Shown here one piece after another: positions 11,137 to 24,707 of a stretch of 39,167 bases of DNA; positions within the stretch are counted from its first letter, which is position 1; the number at the start of each line of letters is the position of its first letter. The stretch covers positions 1 through 39,167 of the forward strand of contig CALMDO010000003.1 in assembly GCA_937862805.1 (NCBI GenBank), written 5' to 3'. Source of the stretch: an uncultured Bacteroidota bacterium. Its GTDB lineage: Bacteria > Bacteroidota > Bacteroidia > Bacteroidales > FEN-979. The notes beneath the pieces were generated by a model. That model made no database searches. It saw only the letters and a list, made by a program, of their open reading frames with translations, and was not told the origin of the DNA. Position numbers and translations under genes: made by a program.

Positions 11137-11211
11137 AACTTTTTTTTTTAAATCTTTCTCTGTTTTGTGCTGAACTCTATACAGGAATCAAACCATCGTA
11201 TCACCGGTATA

Positions 11212-11236
11212 GAATATCATTATATTTGTGATTCTG
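11212..11236 (+). promoter_or_regulatory. Inverted repeat over the -7 box of the RND efflux operon
   Basis: The arms AGAATATCA and TGTGATTCT (7 of 9 positions pair) flank a 7-nt spacer. The exact -7 element TATATTTG sits at 11221-11228, inside the repeat and reaching into its right arm. The layout fits a repressor site; the TetR gene downstream of the pump (17148-17792) is the obvious but untested candidate. Confidence 0.4.
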
Positions 11237-11262
11237 TAACAATCGGAAAAACAGATAACCCC

Positions 11263-12381
11263 ATGAAAAGAACCATTCCCATATCCATGCTTCTTCTCCT
11301 TCTTGTATCCTGTACCGGATCCCTGCCGGATAAAAAGGAAGAGCTTGCTCAGCTTAAGAAAGAACATGACAGGATCACTGCGAAAATCATCCGGTTGGAG
11401 AAAGAACTTTATCCGGCCGGATCAGTGGTCGCTGTCCCGGTTAAAGTAGAAGCGATAAAAAAAGGTCTGTTTGAACATTACATCGAAGTGCAGGGAAGAA
11501 TTGACGGGAATGAAAACATCGGAGTAAGTCCAAGAAATCAGGGAGGTGTTGTCACAAAAATTTTAGTCAGGGAAGGAGATTTTGTAAAGAAAGGGCAGGT
11601 CCTTGCCGAATTGGACGCGGAAGTGCTCAAACAACAGTTGAAAGACCTTCAGAGCAAACTGGCCTTTGCCACGGATCTCTATAACCGCCAAAAAGCATTG
11701 TGGGATCAGAAAATCGGTTCCGAAGTTCAATACCTTTCGGCTAAAAACAACATGGAATCGGCACAGAACGGGATCAATACCCTGGAAGACCAGATCAATA
11801 TGTCGGTCATCACGGCTCCTATCGACGGAACGGTGGAAGATATCCCGATCAAGGTCGGACAGATGTCCTCCTCCGCCTCTCCCACCCCTGCTTTCAGAAT
11901 CATTAATTTTTCAAGGGCCAAAGCGATGGCCGATGTGGGAGAGGCCTATTCTTCCAAAATCAAAACAGGTGACGATGTAAAAGTTTTCCTCCCTGATATC
12001 GATCAGGAACTCGATCAGAAGGTGACCTTCGCCAGCAAATACATCAATCCTACCAACCGGACTTTTTTGGTAGAGGTTGATCTCCCCTTGAAAACCATCA
12101 CCTTCAGGGCCAACATGATAGCAGTGCTCCGTATCAAGGATTACGCCAATCCTTCAGCTATCTCAGTCCCCCGGAATTACATCCAGGATTCGCGCGATGA
12201 AGGACAATTTGTTTTCATCGCTACAATAGAGAAGGGTAAAAAGGTGGCCCGTAAACGGACGGTGATCCCTTTTATTACCTTTAACGGACTCACCGAGGTA
12301 ATTAGCGGGCTTGAAGAAGGCGACCAGATCATCACCGCGGGTTATAAAGAGTTGTACGACGGACAGCCCATCGATTACTAA
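11263..12381 (+). CDS. RND efflux periplasmic adaptor (membrane fusion lipoprotein)
   Basis: 372 aa from the ATG at 11263. A lipoprotein signal peptide ends in LLLVSC with Cys17 as the lipidated residue, so it should be anchored by lipid. A charged coiled coil follows (about 22-55), then the biotinyl-lipoyl-like half motif VVTKILVREGDFVKKGQVL, an alpha-hairpin (about 125-175) and the second half SVITAPIDGTVEDIPIKVGQ. The rest is beta-barrel and membrane-proximal domain ending in EEGDQIITAGYKELYDGQPI. It bridges the RND pump encoded 12 nt downstream to a TolC channel. An in-frame reading from 11167 is rejected because its start lies upstream of the -7 box at 11221. Confidence 0.93.
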   Translation: MKRTIPISMLLLLLVSCTGSLPDKKEELAQLKKEHDRITAKIIRLEKELYPAGSVVAVPVKVEAIKKGLFEHYIEVQGRIDGNENIGVSPRNQGGVVTKILVREGDFVKKGQVLAELDAEVLKQQLKDLQSKLAFATDLYNRQKALWDQKIGSEVQYLSAKNNMESAQNGINTLEDQINMSVITAPIDGTVEDIPIKVGQMSSSASPTPAFRIINFSRAKAMADVGEAYSSKIKTGDDVKVFLPDIDQELDQKVTFASKYINPTNRTFLVEVDLPLKTITFRANMIAVLRIKDYANPSAISVPRNYIQDSRDEGQFVFIATIEKGKKVARKRTVIPFITFNGLTEVISGLEEGDQIITAGYKELYDGQPIDY

Positions 12382-12393
12382 CTCCCGATCCAG

Positions 12394-15300
12394 ATGAAAA
12401 AGAGAGAATACAAACCAAAGGAATTTTTTGCCACCAGTTGGGCCATCGATAACAAAACCAGTATCTACGTTCTGGTTGTCATCATCACCTCCCTGGGACT
12501 TTTGTCATACTTCAATATCCCCAAAGAGCAGTTTCCGGAAATCGTCGTTCCCAACATCATCGTCAACACTCTTTACCCCGGGACTTCTCCGGAGGACATG
12601 GAAAACCTTGTCACCCGTCCCATTGAAAAAGAGTGCAAATCGATCGCTGATGTAAAAAAGATCACCAGCAACTCCATCCAGGATTTTTCGACCATCGTGG
12701 TCGAATTCAACCCGGGGCTGGACGTTTCCGACGCTAAACAAAGGGTTCGCGATGCGGTTGACAAAGCCAAAACCAACCTTCCGAACAACCTCCCCAAGGA
12801 TCCTGACATCATGGAAGTGGATCTTTCTGAGATACCTATCATGAACATCAACCTGGCCGGTGATTATGACCTTCAGCGGCTGAAAAAATACGCGGAAGAT
12901 GCCCAGGATAAGATTGAAACCCTGAAAGAGATCACCCGTGTTGATATTGTCGGAGCGCTGGAGCGCGAAATACAAATCGACGTCGATATGTACAAAATGC
13001 AAGCTGCCAGCGTATCTTTCCGTGATATCGAATCGGCTGTTTCGGCTGAAAATGTGACCATCTCCGCAGGTACTATCACATCTTTCGGCACCAAATACAC
13101 CGTGCGGTTAGCAGGGCAGTTTAAAACACCGGAACAAATCCGGAAAATCATGATCAAATCAGCCAGCGGCGCCGTGGTTTATATTCAGGACATTGCCGAT
13201 GTCAGGGATTCTTTTAAGGAACAGGAAAGTTTCGCCCGGTTAGATGGAAAGAATGTGATCACCCTGAATGTCATCAAAAAGAGCGGGGAAAATCTCCTCC
13301 ATGCTTCCGACGCCATTGTCGATATCATGAACGGGCTCAAGCAAAGTTCCTACCCTCCCGATCTCACCGTCACCCTGACCGGAGATCAGTCACGGTTCAC
13401 CAAAAGTACCCTCGAAGAGTTGAACAACACCATCGTTATCGGATTCATCATGGTGGTATTGGTATTGATGTTTTTCATGGGCTTCAGCAACGCCTTTTTC
13501 GTTGGCCTTTCCGTACCCCTGTCCATTTTCATTGCCTACCTGATCATGCCGGGGCTGGGTTTCACGATGAACATGATCGTGATGTTCGGTTTCATATTTG
13601 CATTGGGGATCATCGTCGATGACGCCATCGTGGTGATTGAAAACACCCATCGCATCCATCGGGAAGAAACTGACATTGTCAAAGCAGCCAAACATGCAGC
13701 CGGTGAGGTGTTTCTCCCTATCCTGTCGGGAACCCTCACCACACTGGCTCCCTTTTTCCCTTTGGCTTTCTGGCCGGGAATTGTTGGGAAATTCATGTAC
13801 TTTCTTCCGGTTACACTGATCCTGACCCTCTTTGCTTCGTTATTCGTTGCCTATATCATCAACCCGGTCTTCGCCGTCGGGTTCATGAAACACGAATATG
13901 ATCATCCGGCCCATAAAATCAATCGCAAAAAGCTGTTGATCATCTCTTTAGCCATGATTGTGCCGGCCACTATTGCTTATCTTTCAGGGGGATTCGCCCT
14001 CGGCAATGTCCTGCTGTTCGCCCTGATCCTTTATGGTTTGTATGAGTTGCTGCTGATCAGGGCCATCAAGGGATTCCAAACAAAAGTCTGGCCATGGATC
14101 ATCCGGTTTTATGAAAAATCGTTGCGCTATGCCCTCAAAGGAAAAAATCCCTGGTATCTCTTTTATTCCATGATTGTCCTGTTTTTCCTGGCCATCCTTG
14201 TGACGGTGATCACCCGTCCGAAAGTGTTGTTCTTTCCCGACAACCAGCCTTCCTATCTCTATGTCTATATTAAAATGCCGGAAGGTACCGATCAAAAGGT
14301 GACCGATTCAGTGACCCGTATTGTGGAAAGCAGAATTCACCAGGTACTTGGAAGCAGCAATCCGAATGTTGAATCGGTCGTTGCCAACGTCGGATCAGGG
14401 GCCGGAGAAAATATGTTTGACCGGTCGGCCTCCTCCAACAGGGGGAAAGTGACTGTCAACTTCATCGAAAGCAAATACCGCCATGGAGTTTCCACACAGG
14501 TGTATATGAACAACATCCGTGAAAACCTGAAAGACATTCCGGGTGTGACCATCAGCGTGGCCAAGAACAAAATGGGACCGCCCACCGGCAAACCTGTCAA
14601 CATTGAGATTACCGGGGAAGACCTCGACCAGTTAATCACTACCTCCATTGCTTTTAAAGCTTACCTTGACTCAATTCGTATTCCGGGAATTGAACAATTG
14701 AAATCTGACTTCGATAACAACAAACCTGAAATCATTGTCGACATCGATCGCGTCAGGGCCAACCGCGAGGGCCTGTCGCTGGGCCAGATCGGACTCGAGC
14801 TCCGGACCGGAATTTACGGAAAAGAGATCAGCAAATACAAGGAGGATGAAGATGAATACCCCATCCAACTTCGGTATTCTGAACAGGAACGGACGAACAT
14901 CAACCAGATCATCAATGCCAAGGTGACTTACCGTGACATGAACAGCGGGCAACTCCGGCAGATCCCGATCTCCTCGGTGGCTTCCGTGCAATACAAAGAT
15001 ACCTATGGAGGCATCAAACGCAAGGATTTGAAGCGGGTGATCACGCTCTCTTCAGAAGTACTGGCCGGCCATACCGCCAACGAAATTGTTTTAAAGATCC
15101 GCCAGGCCATCGGTACTTTCAATCTTCCGAAAGGAATCGAAATAGCCCTTACCGGTGAACGAGAAGATCAGGCAGAAACGATGGTCTTTCTGCTTAAAGC
15201 CATGCTGATCGCTATCGGAATGATCTTTTTCATTCTCATCACCCAGTTCGGTTCGCTGAGCAAATCATTTATTATTCTTAGCGAAGTGATATTCAGCGTT

Positions 15301-15774
15301 ATAGGTGTTTTGTTCGGGATCGCCCTCTTCCGCATGTCCATCAGCGTGATCATGACGGGCCTTGGTATCGTGGCGTTGGGAGGGATCGTGGTGAGGAACG
15401 GGATCCTGATCGTTGAATTCACCGATGAGCTAAAATCCAGGGGCATGAAAACGCTTGAGGCGATTGTAACAGCAGGAAAAACAAGGCTGACTCCGGTTGT
15501 ACTCACTGCTTCTGCTACCATGCTGGGACTGGTTCCTTTGGCTGTAGGGTTAAACGTAAATTTCATCACCCTGTTCACCGAACTCAACCCGCACCTATAT
15601 GTTGGTGGAGACAGTGTCTCTTTCTGGGGGCCTCTCTCATGGACGATCATCTTTGGATTGAGTTTTGCTACTTTCCTGACCCTCCTTTTCGTACCTGCCA
15701 TGCTGCTGATCGATTTACGCATGAAAATTCGCTGGAAACGCCGGAAATCGAACCAAAAAAAACTGCTGCGTTAA
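12394..15774 (+). CDS. RND efflux transporter permease (AcrB/HAE family)
   Basis: 1,126 aa inner-membrane proton-driven exporter. The first helix begins near residue 24, and the first porter domain has the expected YPGTSPEDMENLVTRPIE. TM4 has the proton-relay pair Asp409/Asp410 in GIIVDDAIVVIEN. The lysine of AcrB TM10 (Lys940) is replaced by Arg1001 (VVRNGILIVEF). Between TM6 and TM7, where AcrB has only an amphipathic helix, residues about 513-533 and 536-555 form two extra hydrophobic segments, giving perhaps 14 helices. Length exceeds AcrB (1,049) by about that insert plus loops. It runs to within 5 nt of the convergent tolC-like gene. The substrate is unknown. Confidence 0.94.
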   Translation: MKKREYKPKEFFATSWAIDNKTSIYVLVVIITSLGLLSYFNIPKEQFPEIVVPNIIVNTLYPGTSPEDMENLVTRPIEKECKSIADVKKITSNSIQDFSTIVVEFNPGLDVSDAKQRVRDAVDKAKTNLPNNLPKDPDIMEVDLSEIPIMNINLAGDYDLQRLKKYAEDAQDKIETLKEITRVDIVGALEREIQIDVDMYKMQAASVSFRDIESAVSAENVTISAGTITSFGTKYTVRLAGQFKTPEQIRKIMIKSASGAVVYIQDIADVRDSFKEQESFARLDGKNVITLNVIKKSGENLLHASDAIVDIMNGLKQSSYPPDLTVTLTGDQSRFTKSTLEELNNTIVIGFIMVVLVLMFFMGFSNAFFVGLSVPLSIFIAYLIMPGLGFTMNMIVMFGFIFALGIIVDDAIVVIENTHRIHREETDIVKAAKHAAGEVFLPILSGTLTTLAPFFPLAFWPGIVGKFMYFLPVTLILTLFASLFVAYIINPVFAVGFMKHEYDHPAHKINRKKLLIISLAMIVPATIAYLSGGFALGNVLLFALILYGLYELLLIRAIKGFQTKVWPWIIRFYEKSLRYALKGKNPWYLFYSMIVLFFLAILVTVITRPKVLFFPDNQPSYLYVYIKMPEGTDQKVTDSVTRIVESRIHQVLGSSNPNVESVVANVGSGAGENMFDRSASSNRGKVTVNFIESKYRHGVSTQVYMNNIRENLKDIPGVTISVAKNKMGPPTGKPVNIEITGEDLDQLITTSIAFKAYLDSIRIPGIEQLKSDFDNNKPEIIVDIDRVRANREGLSLGQIGLELRTGIYGKEISKYKEDEDEYPIQLRYSEQERTNINQIINAKVTYRDMNSGQLRQIPISSVASVQYKDTYGGIKRKDLKRVITLSSEVLAGHTANEIVLKIRQAIGTFNLPKGIEIALTGEREDQAETMVFLLKAMLIAIGMIFFILITQFGSLSKSFIILSEVIFSVIGVLFGIALFRMSISVIMTGLGIVALGGIVVRNGILIVEFTDELKSRGMKTLEAIVTAGKTRLTPVVLTASATMLGLVPLAVGLNVNFITLFTELNPHLYVGGDSVSFWGPLSWTIIFGLSFATFLTLLFVPAMLLIDLRMKIRWKRRKSNQKKLLR

Positions 15775-15779
15775 ACACT

Positions 15780-17144
15780 TCAGAATTTCTCCAGCAGTTT
15801 GCTCAGCCTGATCTTCTGGCTTAGCAGCGCATAGATCGACTGCATGTAATCGTTGTTGGCTGAGAGAAATTGCTGATACCGCTGGTTCAGGTCGGTGCTC
15901 CCTGACATCCCCTGCTGGTATTTGGTCATGGTCTTTTCATAAATCTTCAATGCCGTCTGGAATCCCTTCACCTTGTTCAGGTAGATGGTGTATGCATTGT
16001 TAAATTCAGTGCGGGCTGTTGCAACCTGAAGTTCCAGTCCGACTCTCATTTTTTCATCGGTCACTTTGGTTTTTTCGACATTCAGGCGGGCCTGATCGAC
16101 CGAGTATTTTCTGCTGCCGCTGCTCCAGATCGGTATCTGCAGGGAGATCCCGAAGTTCACGGCGGGGTACCATACCTGGCTGGTGTTGAAAAAATTCCAC
16201 GCATTTCGCTGGGCATTAGTTGAAGCGGATAAAAATCCGCTTAGTGTGGGATGGTAGGCTGTCTTCGACAATTTGTACTGCATCAGGGTGAGGTAATCTG
16301 ATTTTTTCAACAAGGTATAGTCGATGTTGTGATGGTAGTCAAAGGGTTGGTTGAGCAGCACATCGCGGTTGACCTGGGCCAGGAAATAGTCAAGAGGATC
16401 AGCCAATACCAGCTCCTCATTGTCTTTCAATCCGATCAGGAATTTAAGGTTGGCGTAGATAAGATCCCGTTGATTTTTCGTGTAGGTAATGGTTGCTTCC
16501 AGGTTGGAGCGGTTCAGATCAGCCTGATCCACTTCAATGTCCTCCAGTAATCCTGCCTTATAACTTTCACCGGCCTCCCGCACAAGGCGGCTGACAACAA
16601 CATAAGTAGAATCTAAAATTTTAATTCCCTCATTGACTACCAGTAAACGAATATAAACATCGGCAACCTGATCCCGCACATCCACTTTATCGCGGAGATT
16701 TTTCTGCTTTGATGTTTCGAGGTAGGCTTTGGCCGTTTGCAATCCAACCAGGTACTGGCCACTGTACAGCAGCTGGGTCAGTGTTCCTTTGATCGTCATG
16801 TTATAGGTAGCGCCAAACTGGACCGGTTGATAGGTGCCGGGTTTACCGAAAAATTCACCGGGCAAGAGGGTGGTGGGTTGTACCACGTAATCGAGATAAT
16901 CGGCATTGGCATTGATTTGTGGCAACCCGATAGCAGTATTTTGCTTCACCATTTTGCGCGCAATTTCCACGTCGGTAGAAGAATTCTTCAGGTCATAGTT
17001 GTTTTCAAAGGCATAATCCTGCGCTTGCTGAAGGGTAAAGACACGCGGTGCAGTCCGGTTAAAACCCGGGGTATCCTGAGCTATAGTTGAGCCAATGAGC
17101 AACAACAGGAAAAGGAGGGAGAAGAGATTCCGGCGAAAAGCCAT
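15780..17144 (-). CDS. TolC-family outer membrane efflux protein
   Basis: 454 aa with a signal peptide (MAFRRNLFSLLFLLLLIGS, cleavage near TIAQ-D). It has two outer-membrane efflux protein repeats: the first half begins FTLQQAQDYAFENNYDLKNS and the second contains IWSSGSRKYSVDQARLNVEK. The C-terminus is rich in alpha-helix and carries YQQGMSGSTDLNQRYQQFL. It should form the trimeric exit duct for the RND pump encoded on the opposite strand. It lies 3 nt after the TetR gene, so the two are translated from one mRNA. Regulator and channel travel together, while adaptor and pump are transcribed separately toward them. Confidence 0.93.
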   Translation of the reverse strand: MAFRRNLFSLLFLLLLIGSTIAQDTPGFNRTAPRVFTLQQAQDYAFENNYDLKNSSTDVEIARKMVKQNTAIGLPQINANADYLDYVVQPTTLLPGEFFGKPGTYQPVQFGATYNMTIKGTLTQLLYSGQYLVGLQTAKAYLETSKQKNLRDKVDVRDQVADVYIRLLVVNEGIKILDSTYVVVSRLVREAGESYKAGLLEDIEVDQADLNRSNLEATITYTKNQRDLIYANLKFLIGLKDNEELVLADPLDYFLAQVNRDVLLNQPFDYHHNIDYTLLKKSDYLTLMQYKLSKTAYHPTLSGFLSASTNAQRNAWNFFNTSQVWYPAVNFGISLQIPIWSSGSRKYSVDQARLNVEKTKVTDEKMRVGLELQVATARTEFNNAYTIYLNKVKGFQTALKIYEKTMTKYQQGMSGSTDLNQRYQQFLSANNDYMQSIYALLSQKIRLSKLLEKF

Positions 17145-17147
17145 GGA

Positions 17148-17792
17148 TCAGATGAATTGATTGAAATTAAATTTCTTTCTTTGTTTTTCGTAATAAGTGA
17201 TGCCTTCAGGTTTGGCTATTCCCCTGATAAAATTATCGAACATTACCTCAAATAAGGTTTGAAAGGAAAACTTGTCGGCAGGAAAAAAATCAGGATTGTG
17301 TAAGTCAATCAATCTCCTGATATAGAGTCGCGCAACCAGTTCAACGCTCAGGTCATCCCGGTACATTCCCTGACTGATCCCTTTTTGGAGATTGATCTGG
17401 ATTTTCTGATAGATGAATTCTATTCGCTCGTCAACATGCCTGTGATATATTTCAGGATAATATTTTTTGAGGTCATACGTCAAGGAAGGGCTGACATCAC
17501 GGAACCGTTCCCCTACATCCCTGCTTACGATCAACAGGATATCGATGGCGTTGACCCCTTCAAAATTATGTTGGTCGAAGATGATTTCAAAATTCTGGCG
17601 TTCCAGCTCAAGCAGTTTTTCAACCAACTGGTTCTTATTGGTGAAATGGCAGTTCAGTTGTTTCCTGGGAAGGTTAAGGGTTTTGGATATTGCTTCCATG
17701 GAAACGCTCCTGACTCCGTTTTTAAAAAATAATTCCCTTACTTGTTCCAGGATAAGGACCAATGCAGCGTCCATGGGATGATGGTTGACCAT
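17148..17792 (-). CDS. TetR/AcrR-family transcriptional regulator
   Basis: About 214 aa from the ATG at 17792 (an ATG at 17774 would give 208). The N-terminal HTH is VRELFFKNGVRSVSMEAISK followed by LNLPRKQLNCHFTNKNQLVEKLL, the TetR pattern with CHF in place of the common YYHF. The remaining helices form a ligand/dimer domain with no clear family match. An in-frame start at 17861 is rejected because it lies upstream of the -7 box at 17850-17857. It is transcribed ahead of the TolC gene (3 nt gap), so it likely controls the efflux system and perhaps itself. Confidence 0.88.
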   Translation of the reverse strand: MVNHHPMDAALVLILEQVRELFFKNGVRSVSMEAISKTLNLPRKQLNCHFTNKNQLVEKLLELERQNFEIIFDQHNFEGVNAIDILLIVSRDVGERFRDVSPSLTYDLKKYYPEIYHRHVDERIEFIYQKIQINLQKGISQGMYRDDLSVELVARLYIRRLIDLHNPDFFPADKFSFQTLFEVMFDNFIRGIAKPEGITYYEKQRKKFNFNQFI

Positions 17793-17849
17793 AAAACCAA
17801 ACTTAGCAGACCGGAGATCAGGGAATTTTGCACCCTTACACCACGGGTA

Positions 17850-17857
17850 CAAATATA
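17850..17857 (-). promoter_or_regulatory. -7 element of the tetR-tolC operon
   Basis: TATATTTG on the minus strand, an exact TAnnTTTG match, with a TTG at 17876-17878 placed 18 nt upstream, near ideal -33 spacing. The -33 element lies inside the last codons of the upstream beta-propeller gene. A second exact match, TAAGTTTG at 17798-17805, would start transcription at or inside the 17792 ATG and favour the shorter 17774 start. Confidence 0.6.
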
Positions 17858-17863
17858 GCAAAA

Positions 17864-19526: not shown

Positions 19527-19534
19527 TATGTTTG
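19527..19534 (+). promoter_or_regulatory. -7 element of the M14 peptidase gene
   Basis: TATGTTTG is an exact TAnnTTTG match. The ATG at 19528 lies inside it, so the real start must be the ATG at 19555, which also opens a proper signal peptide. Confidence 0.6.
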
Positions 19535-19554
19535 GACGCATTTTTGAGAAACCC

Positions 19555-21351
19555 ATGCGACCAATTTTTTCCCTTTTCCTGCTCTTTGTTTTTTCATATT
19601 CCTTTGGACAATCCGGGGATTTGATAACTTTTTACGAGAAATCCGGTAAAAAAGAGACACCGCGGTACAACGAAACCCTAGAGTTTTGCCGGAAGATGGA
19701 TGCATCTTCCCCTTTAATATCCTTACAGGTAATGGGAAAATCAGCCCGTGGCCGGGATATTCCCTTTTTACTGGTAGATGGCCAGGGGATGACAGATCCT
19801 GTCTCTATCCATCGTGCAGGAAAGGTCTTGGTTCTGATACAGGCGTGCATCCATCCGGGGGAATCAGAAGGTAAAGATGCCGGTCTGATGCTGATACGAG
19901 ACCTGGTCTTTGGGCAAAAACCATCTCCATTGCTGAACAACCTCTCCATCCTTTTTATTCCGATTTTTAACGTGGATGGCCATGAACGGTTCGGACCTTA
20001 TAACCGCATCAACCAAAACGGTCCTGCAGAGATGGGTTGGCGTGTTACCGCAGGAAATCTAAACCTCAACCGCGATTATCTCAAAGCCGACACACCGGAA
20101 ATGAAGGCCTGGCTTGCATTTTTCAATCGGTGGATGCCCGATTTCTTCATCGACACCCATACCACCGATGGTGCCGATTACCAGTACCAGCTTACCTGGT
20201 CTATGAATATTTACGGGGATATGGATCCGGAACTAACACGCTGGAGCCGCGATAACTTCGTGGAGCCGATGACCTCCCAAATGGAAACCATGGGATTTCC
20301 GGTGTTTCCGTATATCGAATTCCGTGACTGGCACAACCCTGAAAGCGGCCTTGAATCAGAAAGTTCCCCTCCGATGCTTTCGCAGGGATACACCTCCTAT
20401 CGCAACCGTCCCGGGCTGCTGATTGAGACCCACATGCTTAAACCTTATGACCAACGCGTAAACGCCACTTACCATTGTCTTCTGATCTCTCTCGGAATCC
20501 TGGAAAAAGAACATGAACACCTCATCGACCTGATCACAAAAGCCGACAGCCTGGTTATCAGCCCGAACTTCCGAAAAAGTAATTTCCCGCTCCGGTTCAG
20601 TCTTCGGCAGAACGACAGTATCATGGTGGATTTTAAGGGAATTGCTTACGATGAAGTCAAAAGTACCCTCACCGGAGAAACCTGGTTCAGGTATGATAAA
20701 GAAAAGACGACCTTTTCCCTTCCCTATTTCTCTCACTCAGAACCTTCAAAGTTCATAAAATTGCCGGAAGCCTACATCCTTCCTCCCGAATGGAAAACCG
20801 TCATTGACCGCATGGCCTGCCATGGCATCTTGATGGATACCCTCTCTATTGATACCACGATTTGGGTAAGTACCTCCATTTTCCGCGATCCCCGATGGCA
20901 ACCAACACCCTATGAAGGGCATCATCGGATGACCCGTATTCTATACCAGGACACGGTCATCCAGCGCAGTTATCCGGCCGGATCCGTCATCATCCCCTTA
21001 GGGCAAAATTGCGCCCGGATCATCGCTCATCTGCTGGAACCCGACGGAAATGGCTCTCTCCTCTCCTGGGGGTTCTTTGATCCGGTCTTCGAACAAAAAG
21101 AGTATGCCGAGCGCTATGTGATCGAGCCATTGGCCGCGAAAATGCTGGCAGAGGATCCCATTCTGAGAGAAAATTTCGAAAAGAAGAAAAAAGATGACCC
21201 TGCGTTTGCCGGTGATGTCAATGCGATACTGAACTGGTTTTACAGCAAAACTCCCTGGTGGGACCAGGCCAAAGACCACTATCCTGTCGGAAGAATTTAT
21301 GACAGCAGCTTGATCGAAAAACTGATGAAAACAAGGGCAGCTAAGCAATAA
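19555..21351 (+). CDS. M14-family zinc carboxypeptidase, exported
   Basis: 598 aa from the ATG at 19555. A signal peptide (MRPIFSLFLLFVFSYSFGQ) points to export; no lipobox is seen. The zinc site is HPGESEG (His100, Glu103) with the third ligand His202 in FIDTHTTDGADYQ. Glu291 in RPGLLIETHML is the likely catalytic glutamate. The substrate-binding arginine and asparagine region NLNLNRDYLKADTPEM fits the family. About 270 further residues after the catalytic domain have no recognised fold. It probably removes C-terminal residues from peptides in the periplasm or outside the cell. The gene overlaps the convergent selenium operon by 11 nt and carries no T9SS tail. Confidence 0.88.
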   Translation: MRPIFSLFLLFVFSYSFGQSGDLITFYEKSGKKETPRYNETLEFCRKMDASSPLISLQVMGKSARGRDIPFLLVDGQGMTDPVSIHRAGKVLVLIQACIHPGESEGKDAGLMLIRDLVFGQKPSPLLNNLSILFIPIFNVDGHERFGPYNRINQNGPAEMGWRVTAGNLNLNRDYLKADTPEMKAWLAFFNRWMPDFFIDTHTTDGADYQYQLTWSMNIYGDMDPELTRWSRDNFVEPMTSQMETMGFPVFPYIEFRDWHNPESGLESESSPPMLSQGYTSYRNRPGLLIETHMLKPYDQRVNATYHCLLISLGILEKEHEHLIDLITKADSLVISPNFRKSNFPLRFSLRQNDSIMVDFKGIAYDEVKSTLTGETWFRYDKEKTTFSLPYFSHSEPSKFIKLPEAYILPPEWKTVIDRMACHGILMDTLSIDTTIWVSTSIFRDPRWQPTPYEGHHRMTRILYQDTVIQRSYPAGSVIIPLGQNCARIIAHLLEPDGNGSLLSWGFFDPVFEQKEYAERYVIEPLAAKMLAEDPILRENFEKKKKDDPAFAGDVNAILNWFYSKTPWWDQAKDHYPVGRIYDSSLIEKLMKTRAAKQ

Positions 21352-23677
21352 CCCTGATCCTTCCACCCTCACCGGTAATCCGGCCGATCACCGATGCTTC
21401 CGTCAGCCCGCTCAGCTGTAAAGCCTCCACCAACGATCTTCCCTCCTTTTCAGGCAGCGCGATCAACAACCCCCCGGAAGTTTGCGCATCGGTCAGGATG
21501 CACTTCATTCCTTCAGAAATCTCCGGACTCCAGTCGATCGATCGTTCGGCATGGTGGCGGTTATTCAGGCTCCCACCCGGGACGGTGCCGGCTGCAATGA
21601 AATCCCAGACCCCTTTCATAACGGGGACCTGGCCTGAGAAAAGTTCAGCCCCATACTCCCTTCCACGGATCATCTCCAACAGATGACCCGCCAATCCGAA
21701 ACCAGTAACATCCGTACAGGCACTGACCGGGAAACCGGCCATGATTTCTGCAGCCCTGCGGTTAAGTTCCATCATGACGTCAGCCACTTCGCGGATATCT
21801 TCAACCCTTGCCACACCACGTTGAATGGCCGTGGTCAGGATTCCCGATCCCAGAGGTTTGGTCAAAACAAGCAGGTCATCTTTTTTTACCGTATTGTTTC
21901 TTAACACTTTATCAGGATGAACACGCCCCGTAACAACCAATCCGAATTTGGGCTCAGCGTCGTCAACACTGTGCCCGCCAAGGATGCTGATTCCTGCTTC
22001 AGCCACTTTATCGTTGGCCCCTTTCAGGATGGCATGGAGTGTCTCTACCGGGAGCAAACGTTCCGGGAAAGCCATAATACTCAGTGCGAACAAGGGCTTT
22101 CCTCCCATGGCATAGACATCGCTCAGTGCGTTCGCGGCAGCAATGGCGCCGTATAGGTAAGGATCGTCTACAACGGGAGGAATGAAATCGACGGTTTGAA
22201 CGATGGCCGTTTCATGATCAATGCGATAGACAGCAGCATCATCAGAGGAGGTATGATCAACCATCACGGCGGGATCGAATGCCGGGGGAATGTGATGCAG
22301 TATCTTTTCAAGCAATTGCGGCCGGATCTTACAGGCGCAACCTGGTGAATGGGTGTATTCCGTCAGCCGTATCACCGGAATTTCAACCTTCGGGGTTGTC
22401 GTTTCTGTCTTTTCCGGGTTTAAAACCTCGGCTCTTGCAGGAACGGGCGCTGTTTCGAACGCAGGTTGGGATTCCACGGAGGAATGGAACAAGTCCTCCC
22501 GGAAAGCAACGGGCCTGCGGTTTGCGACCATGGTGCGGTAAGCCTCCACGATGACAGGGAGGGCCCGGTCAATTTCTTCACAGGTAGTCATCCGCCCCAG
22601 GGAAAAGCGCACACTGCCCATGGCATATTTCATCGGAACATGCATGGAAGCAAGAACCCCCGACACTTCAGCTGCTTCCGCATGGCAAGCCGCCCCGGCA
22701 GAGGCAGCCACTCCTTTCATCCGGTTGAGCAGAACGTTGGCTTCCACTCCCGGAAACCCAAGGTTAAGGGTGTTGGGCAGACGATGCGACGGGTGCCCGT
22801 TAAGCCGGACTTCAGGAATCTCGAGCCTGATGCCCTCATGAAGCCGGTCGCGAAGAGCGGCGAGGCCTGGTCCGAAAAGCCCCTTACCTTCCATGTCGAT
22901 CCCGGCTTCGTACTTCATTATGATGTCAGCGGCTTCACCCAATCCTGCAATGCCTGTGACATTTTCTGTCCCGGGCCTGCGACCGGCTTCGTGATCGGCT
23001 CCAAAAATCAACTTCCCGATGGAAACACCCCGCCGGATGTACAAGGCACCAATTCCTTTTGGAGCGTATAACTTATGACCCGCTACCGATAAAAGGTCTG
23101 CTCTCAACTCCTCTACCCTTACCGGAATTTTTCCGATCGACTGGGCTGCATCTGAATGGAAGAGGATCCCATGTTCTTTTGCTATTGTTCCTATCTCACT
23201 GATCGGCTGAATAGTACCCGTTTCATTGTTGGCATGCATTACCGTAATCAGTATCGTTGCAGGGGTGATGGCGTTTAGCACATCCTCAGGGTTCACCATC
23301 CCGGCAGCGTCCACCGGAAGCCAGGTTACTGTAAAACCTATGGTTTCGAGGTAACGGCAAACTTCCGTCACGGCAGGGTGTTCGATCGAACTGGTGATGA
23401 TGTTGTTGCCTTTTGAACGGTTGGCCAAAGCAGCTCCCCGGATGGCGTAATTGTTCGATTCTGTACCTCCTGCGGTGAAAATGATTTCATCCGGCCGGGC
23501 GTTCAGCAAAGAAGCCAACTGTTTTCTGCCTTTTTCCACTGCCAGTTTCGCTGTAATTCCATAGGAGTGGGCACTGGAAGGATTTCCGAAATGATCCGCA
23601 AGGTATGGCTGCATCGCCGCTAAAACCAAGGGATCCAAGGGGGTAGTGGCATTGTAATCAAGATAAACCGGCTTCAT
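21341..23677 (-). CDS. selD: Fusion of cysteine desulfurase (NifS/IscS-like) and selenophosphate synthase (SelD)
   Basis: 778 aa from the ATG at 23677. Residues about 1-385 are a class V aminotransferase-fold desulfurase: YLDYNATTPLD, HANNETGTIQPI, PLP Lys202 in SVAGHK, and catalytic Cys331 in ASAGAACHA. A Pro/Glu/Thr-rich linker spans about 386-435. Residues 436-778 are SelD: LTEYTHSPGCACKIRP with Cys447, Cys449 and Lys450 (Cys, not selenocysteine, in the active loop), the ATP-site block SSDDAAVY, VQTVDFIPPVVDDPY, NALSDVYAMGG, LGGHSVDDAEPKFGL and the C-terminal LTDAQTSGGLL. The first half can release selenium from selenocysteine; the second makes selenophosphate with ATP. It overlaps the end of mnmH by 20 nt. 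An in-frame start nine codons earlier (23704) is less likely. Confidence 0.93.
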   Translation of the reverse strand: MKPVYLDYNATTPLDPLVLAAMQPYLADHFGNPSSAHSYGITAKLAVEKGRKQLASLLNARPDEIIFTAGGTESNNYAIRGAALANRSKGNNIITSSIEHPAVTEVCRYLETIGFTVTWLPVDAAGMVNPEDVLNAITPATILITVMHANNETGTIQPISEIGTIAKEHGILFHSDAAQSIGKIPVRVEELRADLLSVAGHKLYAPKGIGALYIRRGVSIGKLIFGADHEAGRRPGTENVTGIAGLGEAADIIMKYEAGIDMEGKGLFGPGLAALRDRLHEGIRLEIPEVRLNGHPSHRLPNTLNLGFPGVEANVLLNRMKGVAASAGAACHAEAAEVSGVLASMHVPMKYAMGSVRFSLGRMTTCEEIDRALPVIVEAYRTMVANRRPVAFREDLFHSSVESQPAFETAPVPARAEVLNPEKTETTTPKVEIPVIRLTEYTHSPGCACKIRPQLLEKILHHIPPAFDPAVMVDHTSSDDAAVYRIDHETAIVQTVDFIPPVVDDPYLYGAIAAANALSDVYAMGGKPLFALSIMAFPERLLPVETLHAILKGANDKVAEAGISILGGHSVDDAEPKFGLVVTGRVHPDKVLRNNTVKKDDLLVLTKPLGSGILTTAIQRGVARVEDIREVADVMMELNRRAAEIMAGFPVSACTDVTGFGLAGHLLEMIRGREYGAELFSGQVPVMKGVWDFIAAGTVPGGSLNNRHHAERSIDWSPEISEGMKCILTDAQTSGGLLIALPEKEGRSLVEALQLSGLTEASVIGRITGEGGRIRVIA

Positions 23678-24707
23678 CCTTTTCTCTTTTTTTTGTAAAT
23701 TCAAGAATTAACGCTCCTTGTTCCTTAAGGTTCCCACCGGAAAGCCTCAGGGAATGAATTTTTTGCTCCGGCCGGCGGTCGAGAGAGAATTGATAGGCTT
23801 TATCATAGTAAGCCAGGACGATCGCAGCCACACGGTCGAAACGATTGTTTTCCAAAGCAACAAGCGCTTCGTTAAGCCGGGAGCCACCCAGCCGCAAATT
23901 CAAACGGTGGAGAGCCTCCGAAAGCAGTCCTTTATCAAAACCAGCGTATTCATCCACTAAACGGCGGATTCTTTCGTCATGATCCACAATTAATCTGATC
24001 AGGGGACTGGTTGCGATTTTTTGGTATAGCGGATCTGGTAACGTCACCTTCCCTATCATTCTGCTTTCATCCTCAAGCCATATTCTTCTCAAAGGATCCA
24101 GGTGTTGCCACCGGTGAAAAAGATCATTCTCGAACTGTTCATTGGTGGGTTGAGATTGCTGGCCCAGGTGACCAAACACAGATCCTTTATGGGCTGCTAA
24201 TGCTTCCAGGTCGATCACCTGCTCTCCCAACAGGGCCAGTTCTTTCAGGAAAACCGTTTTACCGCTGCCGGTAGGGCCGCCCAAGACAACCACAGCAGCC
24301 GGAGCGCTGAGGGTGGCCCTGACCATCCTGCGCCAGGCTTTGTAGCCTCCTTCCAACACGTGAACCTGATAACCAGCCTGAGAAAAGAGTCCGGCCATCG
24401 AAGCGCTCCGCATGCCCCCCCGCCAGCAATGAATCAGGATCTCCCGGCTTGAAACCACCTTCTTTAACTGAGTAACATATTCCTTTGTCCTGGGTATTGC
24501 CAACTCAAGCCCCTTGATGATGGCTTTATCCTTACCCTGACGGGTATAAAGTGTTCCCACAGCAGCCCTTTCGGCATCATCAAAAAGCGGAATGTTAAAG
24601 GCACCCGTGATGTGCCCCTGCCTGTACTCTCCAGGCGACCGGACATCAATAACCGGAAGTTTCCTCCCCATTTTCGCGAATTTAGTCGGTTCAATTGGCC
24701 CGGTCAT
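23658..24707 (-). CDS. mnmH: tRNA 2-selenouridine synthase (MnmH/SelU/YbbB)
   Basis: 349 aa, close to the E. coli length of 364. It replaces sulfur by selenium in 2-thiouridine at the wobble base of certain tRNAs, using selenophosphate. The N-terminal rhodanese domain (about 12-130) has PVIDVRSPGEYRQGHI and the catalytic Cys94 in IHCWRGGMRS. The second domain has a P-loop GGPTGSGKT (143-151), used in geranylation and selenation of tRNA, and the MnmH block GSVFGHLGQQSQPTNEQFEN. It is the first gene of a two-gene operon with the desulfurase-SelD fusion, which would supply its co-substrate. Confidence 0.95.
   Translation of the reverse strand: MTGPIEPTKFAKMGRKLPVIDVRSPGEYRQGHITGAFNIPLFDDAERAAVGTLYTRQGKDKAIIKGLELAIPRTKEYVTQLKKVVSSREILIHCWRGGMRSASMAGLFSQAGYQVHVLEGGYKAWRRMVRATLSAPAAVVVLGGPTGSGKTVFLKELALLGEQVIDLEALAAHKGSVFGHLGQQSQPTNEQFENDLFHRWQHLDPLRRIWLEDESRMIGKVTLPDPLYQKIATSPLIRLIVDHDERIRRLVDEYAGFDKGLLSEALHRLNLRLGGSRLNEALVALENNRFDRVAAIVLAYYDKAYQFSLDRRPEQKIHSLRLSGGNLKEQGALILEFTKKREKDEAGLS

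Follow-up and report, generated by a model that had tools for sequence, protein, structure and literature searches.

What does a protein that joins a cysteine desulfurase to a selenophosphate synthase do, and which selenium pathway does it serve? The question is raised by the window, by which we mean the whole stretch of 39,167 nucleotides analysed here (contig CALMDO010000003.1 of assembly GCA_937862805.1, from an uncultured member of the Bacteroidales), where a NifS-SelD fusion gene lies on the reverse strand behind mnmH, the gene for tRNA 2-selenouridine synthase. We consider it probable that the fusion is a combined lyase and selenophosphate synthase, a two-enzyme selenium donor that feeds MnmH. 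As read from the sequence, both domains are intact, the gene is linked to mnmH, the machinery for selenocysteine (Sec) was not found, and the catalytic loop of the desulfurase half is lyase-like. The features concerned are as follows (PLP, pyridoxal phosphate).

21341..23677, (-) strand: NifS-SelD fusion gene, 778 amino acids from the ATG at 23677, based on the open reading frame, family matches and a homologue-fitted start.
22529..23677, (-) strand: group-I cysteine desulfurase / selenocysteine-lyase-like domain, residues 1-383, with PLP Lys202 and Cys331.
22370..22528, (-) strand: linker, residues 384-436.
21344..22369, (-) strand: SelD (selenophosphate synthase) domain, residues 437-778, with GCACK (Cys447, Cys449, Lys450).
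23658..24707, (-) strand: mnmH (tRNA 2-selenouridine synthase), 349 amino acids, in the same orientation as the fusion gene and upstream of it.

The fusion gene had been listed as an open reading frame at 21341..23704 (-) with a TTG start; homologues fit the ATG at 23677 instead. The N-terminal half matches the NifS model TIGR03402 with 462.6 bits over residues 4-383, short of the model cut-off of 530.75, and Aminotran_5 over residues 4-371. It was assigned to group I by its PLP lysine in a GHK motif and its long catalytic-cysteine loop, which aligns without gaps to IscS and reads SAGAACH (residues 326-332, including Cys331). The C-terminal half scores 382.4 bits on the SelD model TIGR00476 (residues 437-744; cut-off 125) and was counted as SelD. 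The desulfurase domain thus precedes SelD in one open frame, as in the published NifS-SelD fusions. Across 44 aligned fusions, K202, C331, H332, C447, K450, D479 and D480 are invariant and position 449 is Cys in 43; the coordinates, strand and residues named in the initial annotation all agree with the reading frame and with this alignment. The Pro/Thr/Glu-rich linker described there is indeed present in the window but is not typical, being the longest at 54 residues, against 10-39 in the other 43 fusions and 16 in the nearest relative. Linkers are short, vary in sequence across the 44 fusions and end about ten residues ahead of Cys447, the accepting cysteine of SelD, and an AlphaFold2 model of the window fusion has low predicted confidence over residues 388-468. 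The linker looks like a tether more than a structured channel.

In the mechanism that we propose, the PLP-dependent N-terminal domain would act on a selenium amino acid, in all likelihood selenocysteine, and transfer its selenium to Cys331 (Cys-S-Se). The mobile loop that bears Cys331 would hand it to Cys447, the SelD domain would use ATP to make selenophosphate, and in the window organism MnmH would use this to convert 2-thiouridine in tRNA into 2-selenouridine. Selenocysteine would be the natural donor and MnmH presumably the sole user of selenophosphate in this organism, and a direct hand-over of selenium (channelling) from the NifS half to SelD is the natural reading of the architecture. 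Group-I lyases carry their product on a mobile loop, and delivery from human selenocysteine lyase (SCLY) to selenophosphate synthase has been proposed (PMC3266270). Trypanosome SEPHS2 also binds SCLY, an interaction that depends on the N-terminal region of SEPHS2 (PMC7595633); the window's lyase is joined to SelD at the corresponding, N-terminal end.

The selenium machinery of the window genome, G000 (genomes and loci are cited by our handles, G and L), points to selenouridine. This assembly of 2.82 Mb in 329 contigs is 91.8% complete and holds one SelD over cut-off, namely the fusion, and one MnmH, which together constitute the selenouridine (SeU) trait. SelA gave no match at E<=1e-20, no SelB was over cut-off, and the best tRNA-Sec score, obtained from 150 of 270 candidate places, was 44.6, below the gathering score of 47; the Sec trait, defined by these three components, was accordingly scored as absent. 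YqeB (TIGR03309) gave no match at E<=1e-5, and the selenium-cofactor trait, judged on YqeB alone, was likewise scored as absent. The initial annotation, which saw no selA, selB or selC in the window, is therefore borne out by the genome-wide search within these limits of completeness and tRNA scoring. The only other genome sampled from the family (G100, 98% complete) has the same mnmH-fusion pair, again with no SelA, SelB or tRNA-Sec found above cut-off. By comparison, SelA, SelB and tRNA-Sec were all over cut-off in two positive controls (G073 and G172). The tRNA-Sec model is blunt near its cut-off: it gave 48.0 in G099 and 46.8 in G134, both of which lack a SelA match and a SelB over cut-off.

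The fusion is common in the window's order. SelD was over cut-off in 92 of 198 genomes sampled, and 38 of these 92, including the window's own, have a NifS domain and SelD in one frame. Three of the 38 frames are cut by contig ends (G075, G049, G005) and that of G099 starts at one; G136, where a stretch of N falls between the NifS and SelD frames, was left uncounted, as either a 39th fusion or a split gene. We also considered whether the long frames might be of the Ndh-SelD kind, and rejected this because a NifS half is present in the window's frame and in each of the 37 long SelD frames retrieved from other genomes of the order. In a phylum-wide sample, SelD was found in 51 of 296 genomes, with frames over 650 residues in only two, the window's and that of G250, the latter an MnmH-SelD fusion. 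A contig scan with six peptide patterns returned 33 related loci, among them six full NifS-SelD fusions outside the order: in Caldithrix, Anaerolineales, Cloacimonadota, Krumholzibacteriota, Deltaproteobacteria and one further bacterium, the first five being assigned to other phyla. All these fusion counts are lower bounds. Spread by plasmids was considered and rejected: of 625 matching plasmid records, one matched over >=80% of the query, and it had two separate genes.

The link to mnmH, which the survey proposed in the initial annotation was meant to examine, recurs across the order. Against TIGR03167 (cut-off 219.75) the window MnmH reaches 341.1 bits, and its translation contains the rhodanese motif HCWRGG and the P-loop GGPTGSGKT; the coordinates confirm its position just upstream of the fusion gene with an overlap of 20 nt. 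Among the 38 fusion genomes of the order, mnmH was found in 35 (E<=1e-20), three of which have it as fragments (G005, G128, G191). It lies directly upstream of the fusion in 17 and downstream in G022, with one small frame between, and at the seven loci measured the gene ends overlap or are separated by no more than 21 nt. In G172, a separate SelD sits with tRNA-Sec, selA and selB, and the fusion sits with mnmH. selA was found in nine of the 38, all with mnmH. Where the fusion is the only SelD (29 genomes), 26 have mnmH and 5 selA; the corresponding figures are 20 and 14 for the 28 genomes with the GCSAK-like SelD type alone, and 23 and 4 for the 24 with the GCGCK-like type alone. These types are defined by motif, the first taking in GCSSK, GCAAK, GCTAK and G090 (no motif found), the second GUGCK (G053, G161) and fragments (G154, G017). 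A deficit of selA among fusion genomes was considered and dropped, since 9 of 38 against 18 of 54 other SelD genomes is not significant (Fisher p 0.36). In this order-wide scoring, up to 10 MnmH candidates and up to nine NifS-domain candidates were taken per genome, which leaves absences less than certain.

The catalytic loop bears on whether the desulfurase half handles selenium or sulfur. Three active-site positions set human SCLY apart from general desulfurases, and the decisive one is Asp146: the D146K variant gains activity on cysteine (PMC3266270). We compared 107 desulfurases from the fetched loci, comprising the 44 fusions, 10 close kin (nine unfused, plus G136) and 53 others, using human (hSCL) numbering. 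The residue after the catalytic cysteine (hSCL H389) is His in 44/44 fusions and 10/10 kin, as in the window (His332), and in 1/53 others. Fusions and unfused kin carry the loop GAACH, as does human SCLY, in place of the GSACT of IscS. Immediately ahead of GHK (hSCL V256), all 54 fusions and kin have Ala (Ala199 in the window), which none of the 53 others has there. The fusions thus match one of the three SCLY marks and carry the general-desulfurase residue at none of the three positions. A catalytic-loop profile of seven fusions scored level on IscS (43.2-45.3 bits) and human SCLY (43.6). These comparisons suggest that the desulfurase half may prefer selenium, a preference made more likely by the loop carrying GAACH as in human SCLY, even if the two further marks of SCLY are not matched.

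Other desulfurases vary at the Asp146 position. Pro occurs there in 9/10 kin and 10/53 others, and Asp in 9/53 others, four of them from genomes without SelD over cut-off; the Asp mark therefore does not track selenium in the order. These nine (L122-L125, L127, L129, L131-L133) are class-I desulfurases that combine Asp at this position with Asn before GHK.

Several observations weigh against a selenium donor dedicated to MnmH. The position of hSCL Asp146 is Pro in 44/44 fusions (Pro101 in the window), not the Asp of the human enzyme, and the Ala at the Val256 position in 44/44 matches neither SCLY, which has Val, nor general desulfurases, which have Ser. Taken by itself, the window's loop peptide scored at best 40.1 bits on SCLY against 46.6 on IscS and 42.7 on NFS1, and in another comparison 28.0 against 32.1 and 29.6. 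With the Sec machinery not found, uptake or side reactions would have to supply the free selenocysteine. In 18 of the 35 order genomes that have both genes, mnmH lies elsewhere than directly upstream, and three fusion genomes (G049, G099, G134) have neither an mnmH nor a selA match; the G099 fusion gene starts at a contig end, where an upstream mnmH may be missed, but that of G134 does not. Outside the order, mnmH was found in none of the six fusion genomes, whose completeness is not told. Finally, the AlphaFold2 model, built from an alignment of seven sequences (the window and six loci from the contig peptide-pattern scan), is poor (mean predicted local distance difference test score, pLDDT, 67.2; predicted template modelling score, pTM, 0.45) and uninformative on domain geometry.

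These points have to be set against the alternatives. On a first alternative, which seems unlikely to us, the NifS half would be a cysteine desulfurase of the ordinary kind, supplying sulfur for MnmA-made 2-thiouridine or for Fe-S clusters while SelD merely rides along. The whole domain is indeed nearest to NifS, IscS and NFS1 (whole-protein scores of 321.7 bits for NFS1, 309.9 for IscS and 222.8 for human SCLY, which is behind by 99 and 87), and position 101 lacks the Asp that human SCLY has. However, the fusions lack the general-desulfurase residues at all three compared positions, and a second desulfurase-like match, more distant at 35% identity across residues 4-215, is present in G000. 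Moreover, 112 of the 198 order genomes have no class-I desulfurase match (E<=1e-30; up to nine candidates per genome), which argues against a sulfur need general to the order.

The NifS half might also be a selenium carrier and not a lyase, a role that has been put forward for other sulfurtransferases, with its Cys331 taking reduced selenium from the products of selenite and thiols to SelD. Such a role would suit a genome in which the Sec machinery was not found, where internal selenocysteine should be scarce, but the PLP lysine K202, invariant in 44/44 fusions, would be superfluous for a mere carrier, and we regard this explanation as improbable.

It is also improbable for the window, in our estimate, that the selenophosphate made by the fusion serves some use other than selenouridine, known or not yet known. 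Here mnmH overlaps the fusion gene, and neither SelA nor YqeB has a match in G000. Elsewhere the picture differs: all six fusion genomes outside the order contain another SelD match (interrupted by an in-frame TGA in four, partial in two), with SelA in 4/6 and YqeB over cut-off in 2/6. Within the order, the fusion is the only SelD found in the five fusion genomes mentioned above that have selA, and G134 has no match to MnmH, SelA or YqeB and no SelB over cut-off. That no mnmH was found in the six outside genomes, together with their second SelD match, indicates that the role of the fusion is not confined to selenouridine, and we abandoned a dedicated selenouridine enzyme as a general rule. The users of its selenophosphate seem to vary from lineage to lineage. 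The minimal selenouridine route of the initial annotation is supported as a likely one for the window and its order, but not for fusions in general. The remaining objection, that an assembly or gene-calling artefact joined two genes, for which we found no support beyond the fragmentation of G000 itself, is refuted by the single frame that holds both domains in 37 further genomes of the order and six elsewhere, all independent copies.

Several further loci with selenium genes were noted. In G134 (97% complete), the fusion (L070) lies away from contig ends and is a candidate orphan selenophosphate synthase. Four fusion genomes without SelA (G145, G022, G082, G186) have a second SelD of the GCSAK type (L156, L157, L158, L159), adjoined by a YedF-cluster gene in three (TIGR03527 tested in two) and by an EF2568-type desulfurase in two (tested in one). 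SelD genes of the Sec type, with an in-frame TGA at the catalytic cysteine (GUGCK, GUASK, GUAAK, GUACK), occur at L061 and L227 (G053, G161) and at L201-L205. G084 (77% complete) has an MnmH over cut-off and no SelD over cut-off. In G250, from the window's class, a 687-residue frame (L194:3761-5821 (-)) contains MnmH at residues 14-347 followed by SelD at 348-673 (GCGCK); the terms SelU-SelD and YbbB-SelD were not met in the open literature searched. In G017, a 410-residue MnmH frame (L229:1640-2869 (-)) ends in the start of a SelD, with other SelD pieces in other frames, and is possibly a broken MnmH-SelD fusion.

We then asked how the fused and unfused forms are related. The SelD tree contained 92 SelD domains, including 42 of the 44 fusions (L103 and L104 were too short), after 27 repeat loci (among L056-L067, L160-L175, L178-L183 and L199) had been dropped. 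The fusions form one group (support 97/96) that includes G136 and one unfused SelD, from G119. A tree with the fusions held together was not rejected (p-AU, approximately unbiased test, 0.716) and had an even higher likelihood than the free tree; we therefore do not propose that G119 lost its NifS half secondarily. In the NifS tree (98 rows, nine of the 107 having been dropped for scoring under 195 bits), the 44 fusions, nine unfused copies and G136 form one clade (100/100, with bootstrap values that had not settled), and a fusion clade excluding the unfused copies was rejected (p-AU 1.3e-6). The trees allow one origin of the fusion with the unfused NifS copies nested inside. One fusion event followed by several losses or replacements of the SelD half would be the simplest reading, and there may have been more than one fusion event. 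In both trees, fusions from other phyla lie among those of the order, which suggests transfer of the fusion between phyla. Of the clade's nine unfused NifS genes, three directly follow mnmH (G067 and two Draconibacterium loci), and in these genomes SelD, of another type, is encoded elsewhere; for the remaining six, the sequence stretches examined showed no neighbouring mnmH.

The kind of fusion is already published, as the initial annotation had correctly indicated; the window's member is new, and the frequency, genomic context and loop are additions. According to the open text of PMC2398784 (2008), a NifS-SelD fusion was reported in Geobacter FRC-32 only; PMC4561486 (2015) describes two bacterial instances and two in protists (Acanthamoeba and Naegleria), and states that all prokaryote genomes with extended selenophosphate synthase genes had Sec machinery. 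The published fusions, like the window's, have the desulfurase N-terminal and SelD C-terminal in one polypeptide, and both are predicted to make selenophosphate, a likeness by description. The fusion of Geobacter sp. FRC-32 uses Sec (CxxU) where the window's has Cys (GCACK), and, unlike the published prokaryote cases, the window genome combines a fusion gene overlapped by mnmH with a Sec machinery that was not found. Neither an mnmH link, nor a fusion genome without Sec, nor the loop signature appears in the fusion literature searched, in open texts without supplements. The Ndh-SelD fusion (PMC2398784; TIGR04369 is a relative) likewise extends SelD at its N terminus in one chain, but its N-terminal half is NADH-dehydrogenase-like, and none of the order's 38 fusions is of that type.

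Two other systems resemble the fusion. Animal SCLY (PDB 3gzc, 3a9x; PMC3266270, PMC3266904) shares the group-I NifS fold and the long mobile catalytic loop, and the human enzyme shares with the fusions GAACH and then S.VL....vP. It differs in that the window domain is closer overall to IscS and NFS1, has Pro and Ala at the hSCL Asp146 and Val256 positions, and is fused to SelD. A desulfurase related to EF2568/SclA adjoins SelD as a separate gene, with YedF in several cases (L105-L107, L158, L159, L152), and this pair likely does the same job as the fusion. All five that were tested (L105, L106, L107, L158, L152) scored best on TIGR01977; its cut-off was passed by L152 only, and none reached the SclA cut-off. 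Proteins of this type differ from the fusion in having a short catalytic loop where aligned (L147, L151, L152, L155) and in adjoining a different SelD clade (GCSAK). For bacteria and archaea, a 2026 review (PMC13188914) regards a specific Sec lyase as ambiguous; its candidate is SclA of Enterococcus faecalis, from a selD-containing operon.

A bolder proposal, which we put forward tentatively and regard as possible but doubtful, is that the desulfurase half founds a selenium-preferring bacterial lineage of group-I lyases that gained an SCLY-like loop on an IscS-like body, and that the fusion channels selenium without releasing selenide. If this were true, the fusion would turn selenocysteine and ATP into selenophosphate, and genomes such as G134 would point to a further use of selenophosphate. 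The lyase-like loop may also provide a second case of selenium/sulfur discrimination, beyond the Asp146 rule of human SCLY. How toxic selenide moves between enzymes is an open question, and a fusion that is common in one order and has unfused desulfurase kin makes direct selenium transfer testable, fused versus split.

Among annotated neighbours, no selenium gene other than mnmH recurs beside the fusion. In seven loci a helicase of the UvrD family lies next to mnmH or close to the fusion, as two types told apart by length, RecB/AddA-like of about 1070 amino acids (L087, L100, L101, L170, L173) and PcrA-like of about 770 (L071, L094); L087, L170 and L071 are annotated. A penicillin-binding-protein-like gene recurs likewise in three loci (L087 annotated). 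We take these recurrent neighbours as shared gene order, not as selenium function. In the window itself, a convergent gene at 19528-21351 (+), with no NCBIfam match, shares 11 nt of its 3' end with the end of the fusion gene. Further away, positions 11167-17861 hold, in one neighbourhood, an RND efflux adaptor, a permease (1126 amino acids), a TolC-like protein and a likely efflux repressor.

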